A stretch of 64,000 nt of DNA. Source: Azotosporobacter soli (lineage in GTDB: Bacteria > Bacillota > Negativicutes > SG130). Shown here in pieces: positions 54,066-57,878 of the stretch; the stretch's first letter is position 1; every line of letters starts with the position of its first letter. Location of the stretch: contig NZ_JAUAOA010000017.1 in assembly GCF_030542965.1 (NCBI RefSeq), forward strand, positions 1 through 64,000, written 5' to 3'. Made by a program: the position numbers and the translations under genes. The notes beneath the pieces were generated by a model that was given only the letters and a program-made list of their open reading frames with translations, was not told the origin of the DNA and did not search any database.

Positions 54066-56192
54066 TCACGCCTCCAGCACCATTTTACTCTTGCCTTTGT
54101 AGAGTTTTTCAAGCAAACGGCTTATTTCCAGCCGTGCCGCCGCCTGATCGCCCCGACGCAATTCGGCAAGGAAAGCAGGCCTTTCAATCAGCATTTGGCT
54201 TAAATAGCTGATGGTCTCCATTGCGTTCTTATGGCACTGTAACGGTGCGAGCATAATGACCGCCAAACGGATTTCTTCCGAAACCGCTGCCCGTCCATGG
54301 ATTCCTGTAAGCGGCTCTTTTAGTGCAACCGCGCCGAAAAAGAGTTCCTGCACCGCGCTGGTTCGGCAATGCAAGAGAATGAAGCCATGTCCGGCAATTA
54401 TCGTACCGCCTTTGGCTTCACGTTCTTTTAAATCCAGCGCTAATTGGCTTTGTTCGCTTTCTCCTTTGGCGCACAAGCGAACAGCAGCGTCGATAATGCC
54501 GTCCACCGTCGCCGTCTCCATGCCAAGCAAGAAGAAGTGCTCCAACAATTCGAGGATCGCGCTTTGATAACTGCCAAGCGTTCCGAGTTTTTCCTGCAAG
54601 GAAACCGTCGATGCCTGCACGCGCGTTTCCGTTTGCGCTTGTCCGTTCAAGCGCTGCAATAAATCGGCGATGCGTTTTTTATCCGCTGCAAACAAGAGCG
54701 GATTCACGACGACAACCGGCATACTGCAATCGCTGATCGGAATCGTCGCTAAAATAAAGTCGATCTTTTTTTCTTTTAGCCAGCCTTCTTCCAGACGCAG
54801 GCTGGAAATAACATCGACAATGATGATGTTGTCATACTCTTTTTCAATCTTGCTGGCAAGCAGACGGGATGTGCCCATTCCTGTCGGACAGGCAATCGCG
54901 ACCCGGTATACGATACGGCTGCGGCGCCGACTGTCTTCGAGCGCCGCGCCAAGATGCATCGCGATATAAGCAATCTCGGCTTCCGGCATCACAACGTTCC
55001 ACTGACGTTCAACCGGTTCGACGCATTGGCGGCTGACTTCGATCAATTCCGGATAAAAGGCCTTGATCTCCGCCAACAGCGGGTTGCGTATCTCCAGATT
55101 CATGCGCAGACGGCTCACCGCAGGACCAAGATGATTGACCAAACCAACCAGTAATTTTTCATTCTGCGCCAGAAATTGCCCGCTGACGCCTTCCGCGGCG
55201 CGGATGATTTCTTTCGCAACCTTGACCAGTTCAAAATTGCCAATCGACTGTTGCGCAATACCGGCTCCGCCGTCGCGATTCTTCAGGCCCTTCAAATGCA
55301 TCGTGATATAACCGATTTCATCCTCCGGGATTGCAATCGCAAAACGCGCCGCGATCGCATCGGCCAAACGGCGGGCAATGTCGTATTCCCGGTACCGTTT
55401 CAACTCAGCCAACAACTCAGCCGCCATGCTTATTTTTTCCTGCTGCCGGATGCGCTGCACAGCCAACGCCAAATGCACGGTCAAGCCTACATAGGCAGTA
55501 TCCGCCAAACGTCCGCCCATTGCATCTTCCGTCTCTCGGATCGTCTCTTCCAGTTGTCCGATCACATCCTGATCAATCAAATTCAAGAGACGACTTTGCG
55601 CCCAGCCGCTCGGCAGTCGCTCCGTCTTGCCAAGATTACTGCGGATCACTTCCAATAATTGATCCGCACCTACCGTTTCATAAAGAAAGTTGACCATAGC
55701 CCGACGCAGTTTTTCTTCTGCGCCTTCAACATAGACGCCAAAACCCGGCTTACGCACCAGTAAGACGCCCTGCCCCTTCAGCCACTGCTCGGCCTTATCC
55801 AAATCATGGCTGACCGTACCTTCGGTAACTTTTAAATCGAGCGCCAGCGTATATAATTTGACGGGTTCGCGGCGCTGCAGCAGTTCACTGATAATGCGTT
55901 TTTGCCGTTCCTGCGGCGAATACACTTCAACCGACTGCTGCCCCTCCATCGCCTGCAGCACCTCGCGCCGCAGCATGGCATCGCCTGCGAGCGCCACGCC
56001 TGTGCCCGTCTTTTTTTGCAATTGCCAGCCTCGCTCCGTCAGCCATTCTTCAACCGCACTCAAGTCACGCAGCACCGTCTTTGCACTCACTCCGAGCGTC
56101 GCAGCAATCGCGCTCAGCGTCACATACCCATCCTGACGGCAAAGTTCGCGCAATATGCTTTTTACACGATGATTCATCTTTTGTTCCTGCAT
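54066..56192 (-). CDS. mtlR: BglG/MtlR-type PTS transcriptional activator
   Basis: A 708-residue regulator with N-terminal DNA-binding domains (ILRELCRQDGYVTLSAIAATLGVSAKTVLRDL), two PTS regulation domains (about 180-390), an EIIB-like domain (AIACPTGMGTSRLLASKIE) and an EIIA-like domain (GHGFILLHCRTSAVQEL). Phosphorylation by the PTS tunes its activity, so it would turn on the cluster when substrate is present. The ATG at 56192 follows AAAGGAGCGGAAT, only 20 bases from a long heptanucleotide repeat. Confidence 0.92.
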   Translation of the reverse strand: MQEQKMNHRVKSILRELCRQDGYVTLSAIAATLGVSAKTVLRDLSAVEEWLTERGWQLQKKTGTGVALAGDAMLRREVLQAMEGQQSVEVYSPQERQKRIISELLQRREPVKLYTLALDLKVTEGTVSHDLDKAEQWLKGQGVLLVRKPGFGVYVEGAEEKLRRAMVNFLYETVGADQLLEVIRSNLGKTERLPSGWAQSRLLNLIDQDVIGQLEETIRETEDAMGGRLADTAYVGLTVHLALAVQRIRQQEKISMAAELLAELKRYREYDIARRLADAIAARFAIAIPEDEIGYITMHLKGLKNRDGGAGIAQQSIGNFELVKVAKEIIRAAEGVSGQFLAQNEKLLVGLVNHLGPAVSRLRMNLEIRNPLLAEIKAFYPELIEVSRQCVEPVERQWNVVMPEAEIAYIAMHLGAALEDSRRRSRIVYRVAIACPTGMGTSRLLASKIEKEYDNIIIVDVISSLRLEEGWLKEKKIDFILATIPISDCSMPVVVVNPLLFAADKKRIADLLQRLNGQAQTETRVQASTVSLQEKLGTLGSYQSAILELLEHFFLLGMETATVDGIIDAAVRLCAKGESEQSQLALDLKEREAKGGTIIAGHGFILLHCRTSAVQELFFGAVALKEPLTGIHGRAAVSEEIRLAVIMLAPLQCHKNAMETISYLSQMLIERPAFLAELRRGDQAAARLEISRLLEKLYKGKSKMVLEA

Positions 56193-56211
56193 ATTCCGCT
56201 CCTTTCCGTCC

Positions 56212-56325
56212 GTGGCTTGTGGCTTGTGGCTTGTGGCTTGTGGCTTGTGGCTTGTGGCTTGTGGCTTGTGGCTTGTGGCTTGTGGCTTGTGGCTTGTGGC
56301 TTGTGGCTTGTGGCTTGTGGCTTGT
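56212..56325. repeat. Heptanucleotide tandem repeat (GTGGCTT), 16 copies
   Basis: GTGGCTT is repeated 16 times without error from 56212, plus two bases. The segment 56341-56410 beyond it has degenerate GCC-rich relatives (GCCATATGCCGTCC, GCCATACGCCGTCC). On the minus strand it reads CAAGCCA repeats in the leader or promoter of mtlR. Perfect 7-mer arrays of this length are prone to slippage. Confidence 0.95.
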
Positions 56326-56412
56326 CAGGCATTATACCGTTTCCCGTTAGCCCTTAGCCATATGCCGTCCTGCCGCTAGCCATTCGCCATACGCCGTCCG
56401 TCCCGTCCTCCG

Positions 56413-57837
56413 TCACGCCAATCGTTTCACCAGCGCGTCATATTCCGGGCTGTCGATGAAATTGGTAATTGAAATATGTTCCGCTTTGGCCGCAATACCG
56501 CGCGCCCGTTCGGTTAACGTTTCATGCGTGATGACGATATCCGCATCCGCCGGAATGTCTTCGATCGCATGATTGACCACCACGATGGAAAGTCCGGCTT
56601 TCTTGAACTTGTTGCGTAAAGTGGTCGCACCCATCGCACTCGAGCCCATTCCCGCATCACAGGCAAAGACTACTTTATTCACGCTCTTACGCGGCGCTGC
56701 ATTCACCGGCACACTAGCTGCACCAGGCACGCCTTTTAACTCTTTGACCTTCGCCTTGGCATCCTCAAGTTCCTCCTCGTCCAAGCGACTATTTGCCCGT
56801 TTCACGAACGGAGCCGCCACAAGGAAGGTCACCGCAGTCGAAACGACTACGCCTGCCAAGACCGCCAGATAACCGCCTTTGGGCGTCATCGCCAACAAGG
56901 CAAAAATGCTGCCCGGCGACGGAGTCGCCACCAAGCCTGCTCCCATCAGCGAAAAGGTGAAGACGCCGCTCGCGCCGCCTGCAATGACGGCCAATAGCAA
57001 CATCGGATTCATCAGCACATAGGGAAAATAAATTTCGTGAATGCCGCCGAGGAAATGGATGATGATCGCACTTGGCGCCGATTGCTTAATCATGCCCTTG
57101 GCAAAAATCCAATAGGCCAGCAAGATGCCCAGTCCCGGACCAGGATTGGGTTCAAGAAGAAAGAAAATTGATTTCCCCATTTCTTTCGCTTCCTGAATGC
57201 CAATCGGACTTAACACGCCATGATTCATCGCATTGTTCAAAAACAAAATCTTTCCCGGTTCAATAAAGATCGAGATCAGCGGCAATAACCCGGCATTGAC
57301 GATGCCCTCGACGCCGACCTTCAGCATATTGCTGAGCGACAGCACCACCGGGCCGATTGCCGTATAACCGATCAAAGCCACCAAACCGCCCAGGATGCCC
57401 GCCGAAAAGTTGTTGACCAGCATTTCAAAGCCCGGTTTCACTTTCCCGGCTATCGCGTCATCGAATTTTTTAATCACATAGCCGCCAAACGGTCCCATGA
57501 TCATCGCGCCGATGAACATCGGAATATCGACGCCGACAATCACACCCATCGTAGCGACCGCACCGATCACGCCGCCGCGGCTGCCGCCGACGCTTCGACC
57601 TCCGGTATAACCGATCAAAAGCGGCAAGAGATAAATGATCATCGGACCGACCAATTTGCTCAAGTACTCATTCGGAGCCCAACCGGTAGGAATAAACAAG
57701 GCCGTAATTAATCCCCATGCAATGATGGCCCCAATATTCGGCATCACCATGCCGCTTAAGAAGCGCCCAAATTTCTGCACCTTTTCTTGCGCATTTCCAG
57801 CGCCGTTTCCCTGTGGCGTCGAAGAAAGATCAGACAT
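56413..57837 (-). CDS. mtlA: PTS mannitol-family transporter EIICB
   Basis: A 474-residue permease of the mannitol class: EIIC (RFLSGMVMPNIGAIIAWGLI, GGSRGGVIGAVATMG) and EIIB with the active Cys in VFACDAGMGSSAMGATTLR. The EIIA domain is missing; it may be supplied by the EIICBA protein at 52214 or by a separate gene. The start is the ATG at 57837 after GGAGGCACATAGTG. A promoter with TATAAT at 57917-57912 precedes it. Mannitol is the family substrate; the actual sugar is unproven. Confidence 0.92.
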   Translation of the reverse strand: MSDLSSTPQGNGAGNAQEKVQKFGRFLSGMVMPNIGAIIAWGLITALFIPTGWAPNEYLSKLVGPMIIYLLPLLIGYTGGRSVGGSRGGVIGAVATMGVIVGVDIPMFIGAMIMGPFGGYVIKKFDDAIAGKVKPGFEMLVNNFSAGILGGLVALIGYTAIGPVVLSLSNMLKVGVEGIVNAGLLPLISIFIEPGKILFLNNAMNHGVLSPIGIQEAKEMGKSIFFLLEPNPGPGLGILLAYWIFAKGMIKQSAPSAIIIHFLGGIHEIYFPYVLMNPMLLLAVIAGGASGVFTFSLMGAGLVATPSPGSIFALLAMTPKGGYLAVLAGVVVSTAVTFLVAAPFVKRANSRLDEEELEDAKAKVKELKGVPGAASVPVNAAPRKSVNKVVFACDAGMGSSAMGATTLRNKFKKAGLSIVVVNHAIEDIPADADIVITHETLTERARGIAAKAEHISITNFIDSPEYDALVKRLA

Positions 57838-57878
57838 CACTATGTGCCTCCCCTGTTTAATTTTCCGTAATGACTTGT

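Follow-up and report, generated by a model that had tools for sequence, protein, structure and literature searches.

Does a perfect heptanucleotide array directly ahead of a regulator gene for sugar uptake serve as a switch for that gene, or is it one of several such repeats scattered over the genome? The array in question lies in the 220-bp gap between two co-directional genes of the window, by which we mean the whole 64-kb stretch of DNA analyzed (Table 1). The upstream gene resembles mtlA and encodes a mannitol PTS component; the downstream gene encodes an MtlR-like regulator and is followed, on the same strand, by a second IICBA gene and genes for a 1-phosphofructokinase and a zinc dehydrogenase. 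Orthologs of mtlR share a similar N-terminal stretch, MQ(D/E)..KMN, supporting the ATG at position 56192. Because of these conserved N-termini and because mtlR possesses its own Shine-Dalgarno sequence, the array is located outside the MtlR protein. The sequence-only reading of this DNA had assigned the array to the leader of a PTS regulator gene, and this is supported on both counts: the gene product is of the PRD/EIIA type and its gene adjoins that for a mannitol PTS protein, while the array precedes the Shine-Dalgarno sequence and start codon of mtlR. It also lies just upstream of the gene as described, but the spacing between the last array base (56212) and the ATG amounts to 19 nt and not to 20.

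Table 1 Features of the mtlA-mtlR region (positions refer to the window).
Feature	Position	Strand	Basis or remark
mtlR-like regulator gene, 708 aa (HTH, two PRD, PTS IIB-like and EIIA domains)	54066..56192	-	start backed by ortholog N-termini
Possible upstream ORF through the array, 52 codons, overlapping the mtlR start	56174..56332	-	ATG 56332
AAAGGAG, mtlR Shine-Dalgarno sequence between array and ATG	56199..56205	-	sequence
Array, 16 perfect copies of AAGCCAC in the mtlR sense strand (GTGGCTT on +)	56212..56323	-	direct reading and TRF
GGTATAATGCCTGAC, 15-mer directly before the array in the sense strand	56324..56338	-	exact match at the lptA-lptB array, C2:352617-352631
TATAAT, probable -10 box, 7 nt before the array	56331..56336	-	position relative to mtlR start conserved in orthologs L244 and L245
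Degenerate heptads, core on the strand opposite to the array	56341..56410	.	TRF and phase shuffles
mtlA-like gene, mannitol PTS EIICB, upstream of and co-directional with mtlR	56413..57840	-	borders the 220-bp gap

The sixteen perfect copies reported earlier are real and rightly placed, as both direct reading and TRF show. The latter called positions 56212-56325 with a period of 7, 16.3 copies, 100% matches and a score of 228, and a further GT on the plus strand follows the full copies up to 56325. This is by far the strongest TRF array in the window, and a scan for perfect arrays with periods of 2 to 40 returned no other in the 64 kb. No exact inverted repeats of at least 8 nt were present within 56190-56420, and a search of Rfam yielded only a chance match below threshold. 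The genome was surveyed by patterns and by stretches. The GTGGCTT pattern produced 30 hits in it, whereas the same pattern read backwards, which served as the control, produced none, and chance is therefore excluded as an explanation for the array. As is characteristic of dispersed heptanucleotide simple sequence repeats (SSRs), the seven-base tandem extends far beyond chance length.

The same genome (G000, 3.78 Mb) contains a second GTGGCTT array of about 19 copies at C3:353158 and three TGGCTCG arrays at C2:274270 (10.6 copies), C2:277502 (18.1) and C2:352486 (19.1). It further has a short array of AGCCACT units (C20:20385) and, at C2:186451, 197632 and 219817, degenerate heptads of the GGCT type. 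The pattern matching these sister arrays found nothing in the genome when read backwards, and a 240-kb sample from elsewhere in the genome was devoid of heptad arrays. All five long arrays reside just before a gene start and have AGCC on the sense strand; the exception is the short array on C20. The genes near the sister arrays, named by sequence reading, are unrelated: lptA-lptB, secA-prfB, uvrC-lemA and those for an ABC-F ATPase and a molybdopterin oxidoreductase. The presence of multiple related arrays between the genes of a single genome is the second hallmark of dispersed SSRs. We thus state that the mtlR array is one of several expansion-prone heptads of a known class that occur across the genome, and that it is not a switch built for mtlR, although it may tune expression. 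As sister arrays adjoin unrelated genes, the array is not specific to sugar uptake, and the proposal of a device dedicated to the sugar-uptake cluster is not supported.

One of these sites was looked at in relatives. The lptA-lptB gap harbors 19 TGGCTCG copies in one family (L193, G000) and about 45 AGCYNNN units in another (L316/L337, G039), and unrelated repeats are present in the corresponding gap of other relatives. The gap looks permissive for repeats.

How could the array act on mtlR? A consensus scan of the locus revealed neither a full sigma-70 site nor a convincing -35 element. The array is preceded by TATAAT, probably a -10 box. In two orthologous mtlA-mtlR gaps from another family of the same class (L244 and L245 in G005 and G043, with mtlR orthologs of 55% identity), the array is absent and GTATAAT is retained. 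The TATAAT of these gaps lies 30 nt ahead of the ATG of mtlR; the distance is 26 nt here when the array is removed. An exact TATAAT is found 4-7 nt before three of the five long arrays (that in the window, 7 nt; C2:352486; C3:353158, 4 nt), and a weaker GATAAT precedes the array at C2:274270. In gene-upstream DNA of this genome, TATAAT falls into such a five-base slot in about 0.5% of cases, i.e., some 0.005 occurrences are expected per array. The resulting P of about 1e-6 for three arrays out of five belongs to a pattern noticed after the fact, and the identical 15-mer flanks of two of these arrays could have a common origin: exact copies of GGTATAATGCCTGAC are confined to two sites of the genome, the mtlR and the lptB arrays. 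The succession of TGGTATAAT, array, Shine-Dalgarno sequence and ATG is also encountered in G039, a member of another family (L166/L315). Adjacency to a -10 box as a general rule was rejected. Across phyla it was seen at 8 of 107 loci against a background of 2.3%, mostly in one family of homologous loci, and it was not seen in most other genera.

Because TATAAT stands before three of the arrays and because array-free orthologs keep it, the mtlR array most likely occupies the 5' untranslated region (UTR) from the transcription start onward. The simplest reading of the order of -10 box, array and ribosome binding site (RBS), which is an order established from sequence only, is growth of the array in the interval that separates the transcription start from the RBS. 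In a 5' UTR, a change in copy number would therefore alter the length of the leader and not, as the sequence-only reading had supposed, the spacing of promoter elements; the array is apparently located downstream of the -10 box. This bears on the idea of a dedicated phase-variation switch, in which the geometry of the promoter would depend on copy number and the mannitol cluster would be switched on or off accordingly. A long perfect array near the start of a regulator gene would suit such a switch, and if an operator lay beyond the array, a single-unit change would shift its helical phase, since three units (21 bp) correspond to about two helical turns. However, the array does not separate promoter elements and arrays of the same type precede unrelated housekeeping genes, so that we regard a dedicated switch as unlikely.

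Instead, we favor, with a probability of roughly 55%, an expansion-prone heptad in the 5' UTR whose slippage changes leader length with a graded and incidental effect on mtlR. Transcription of mtlR would start from the TATAAT just upstream of the array, placing the 5' end of the mRNA approximately at the first repeat and leaving sixteen AAGCCAC units as an unstructured 5' UTR ahead of the RBS. Slipped-strand mispairing would add or remove seven-base units, and the leader would become longer or shorter. The consequences for mtlR would be graded and exerted via leader length, mRNA stability and promoter clearance, as measured for hmw1A of Haemophilus influenzae, and they would be incidental rather than those of an evolved mannitol switch. 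The predicted leader RNA, taken from position 56326, has a less stable fold than any of 200 shuffled versions (z = +3.8), and the repeat RNA is unstructured, with 43% C and 14% G. Against a 5'-UTR location it may be argued that mtlR could be transcribed by read-through from mtlA.

Read-through from mtlA also enters into an explanation by attenuation or Rho-dependent control, in which the C-rich, G-poor repeat RNA, or a hairpin that it forms with an upstream GGC-rich stretch, halts transcription before mtlR. The base composition and lack of structure of the repeat RNA would be in keeping with this, a read-through transcript allows pairing between the GGC arm and the array, and repeat-dependent attenuation has a precedent in pil1 of Streptococcus gallolyticus (PMC3894217). 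Yet the read-through RNA including the upstream stretch does not exceed its shuffled counterparts in stability (z = -0.47), a terminator scan detected no intrinsic terminator at the locus, and the sister arrays with CGAGCCA units are less C-rich relative to G. Of all explanations weighed here, we consider this the least probable.

Scarcely more credit can be given to a translational frame switch. In this case, translation would start at the ATG at 56332, 9 nt before the array, and the number of copies modulo 3 would decide whether the ORF overlaps the start of mtlR or adds an N-terminal extension to it in frame. The array is free of stop codons in all frames, 14, 17 or 20 copies would fuse the upstream ORF to mtlR in frame, and with the sixteen copies present the ORF of 52 codons overlaps the mtlR ATG. 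Moreover, ORFs of Helicobacter and of a metagenome-assembled genome (MAG) from the Melainabacteria contain the AAGCCAC unit shortly after their start. On the other hand, the ATG at 56332 is not accompanied by a Shine-Dalgarno sequence and overlaps the TATAAT, while mtlR has its own Shine-Dalgarno sequence and a conserved start.

The ORFs in those two groups deserve a description of their own. In the Melainabacteria MAG LacPavin_0419_WC70S_MAG_44_8 (L043, L049, L059, L073, L113, L122, L140), a family of pilin-like ORFs (GFTLSELLVSLAVLGLIAGLT) contains 4-11 AAGCCAC copies about 16 nt after the ATG; most have a Shine-Dalgarno sequence and six of the seven are out of frame. This looks like a phase-variable pilin family. 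In Helicobacter vulpis, H. labacensis and H. baculiformis (L050, L093, L139), five AAGCCAC copies are situated 12-14 nt after the ATG of related, outer-membrane-like ORFs, one of which is in frame and two of which are out of frame.

Stretches with four exact GTGGCTT copies numbered at least 120 in about 85,000 GTDB genomes and came from many phyla. A special enrichment of AAGCCAC across bacteria was rejected for the phylum: three GTGGCTT copies are present in just one of 397 other genomes of the phylum, so the unit is not generally favored. Of 300 genomes of the class, 24 contained AGC-core heptads of five units, while the reversed control gave a few hits as well. A period of 7 was also the most frequent one in perfect arrays outside the seed array (16 of 26). 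When located in co-directional gaps, AAGCCAC lies in the sense strand at 29 of 34 loci, as judged by crude ORF calling; counted per genome, after regrouping of the loci by hand, 22 genomes favor this orientation, one favors the opposite and one is tied.

That such arrays change in copy number between species follows from five species of one genus of the same class (L284-L288), whose orthologous AGCTGAT arrays, 37-49 nt before a TusA-like gene, comprise 7, 8, 8, 9 and 10 full copies. The earlier view that so long and perfect an array of heptads represents the sort of repeat that varies in copy number was sound, and a change at the mtlR array is plausible. For mtlR, on/off switching is less likely than a graded effect or no effect at all. 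The possibility of no measurable effect, i.e., of a slippage-prone repeat that is merely tolerated in the leader as a neutral by-product, is rather improbable but carries more weight than the other alternatives. It agrees with the unstructured leader, with the unrelated repeats in the lptA-lptB gap of relatives, which are as expected of permissive gaps, and with the report that heptads are the most abundant class of long SSRs in most bacterial genomes, an abundance for which slippage of the polymerase has been put forward as the cause (Mrazek 2007, as cited in PMC4679880 and PMC4692102). By contrast, an insertion of 112 nt between transcription start and RBS is unlikely to be wholly without effect, hmw1A does show an effect (PMC8262952), and the bias towards the sense strand across phyla suggests selection or a strand-specific mechanism. 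Selection against GTG/TTG starts or against leader structure could explain this bias.

The degenerate stretch between the array and mtlA had been taken for relatives of the repeat that mark an older, expanding array. Degenerate heptads do exist there: TRF reports a 29-bp unit in 1.9 copies, and the concentration of GCC triplets in one heptad phase was equalled or exceeded in only 0.95% of shuffles. They are not an older part of the same array, however, because their core lies on the opposite strand (AGCC/GCC on the plus strand, as against GGCT in the array). The stretch has GGCAGGACGG in common with a few other intergenic elements, which contain heptads in both orientations. Also rejected was the notion of a mobile element, defined by fixed ends, that had dispersed through the genome: GGCAGGAYGG is present in about six intergenic elements, most of its 24 hits being chance matches in coding sequence, and GGTATAATGCCTGAC lacks further exact copies. 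By eye and uncounted, many GTGGCTT loci (L039-L158) feature oppositely oriented heptads within about 100 bp; examples of opposite heptads are AAGCTGC arrays in Pseudomonas and GTGGGTA/TACCCAC in L143. In Xanthomonas, inverted heptad pairs have been described in 70 and 75 cases (PMC4692102).

A more far-reaching idea is that heptad arrays in this lineage are seeded at transcription start sites, where the open complex or early transcription drives expansion and so creates length-dependent 5'-UTR rheostats that begin at +1 of unrelated genes. We put this forward as speculation and deem it a little more doubtful still than the dedicated mtlR switch. Should the array vary in copy number and thereby tune mtlR, the regulation of sugar uptake would be subject to a type of repeat that is mostly known from the adhesins of host-adapted bacteria. 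Why seven bases are the favored unit of long repeats in bacteria is an unsettled question, on which the AGC-core heptads of the class and their sense bias near gene starts have a bearing.

Known bacterial heptanucleotide SSRs, such as the cyanobacterial STRR sequences, GGGAATC in Xanthomonas and TAACTGA in Beggiatoaceae, share with the array described here the seven-base unit and the scattered intergenic location. They vary in copy number, occur as related units in one genome and are often found near gene starts, and those of Xanthomonas have inverted neighbors just as at the mtlR locus. The AGCC-core unit and the host lineage differ from the heptads treated in PMC4679880 and PMC4692102. The (AAGACTC)n array of neuO in Escherichia coli K1 is also a heptanucleotide repeat of similar length, but it resides inside the coding sequence and switches the reading frame (PMC13001214), whereas the mtlR array is outside the gene; a coding-frame contingency locus of the neuO type was rejected, as mtlR starts after the array. 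With pil1 of S. gallolyticus the locus shares a leader repeat and a possible upstream ORF, but the pil1 repeat is a pentanucleotide in a translated leader peptide that is combined with a terminator (PMC3894217). The closest resemblance is to hmw1A and hmw2A of H. influenzae. A difference is that hmw1A is an adhesin gene with a second promoter after the array and with demonstrated variation. In hmw1A, (ATCTTTC)n lies between the -10 box of promoter P2 and the RBS, and expression drops with increasing copy number (PMC8262952); relative to its predicted transcription start, the mtlR array occupies the same position, between -10 box and RBS in the 5' UTR.
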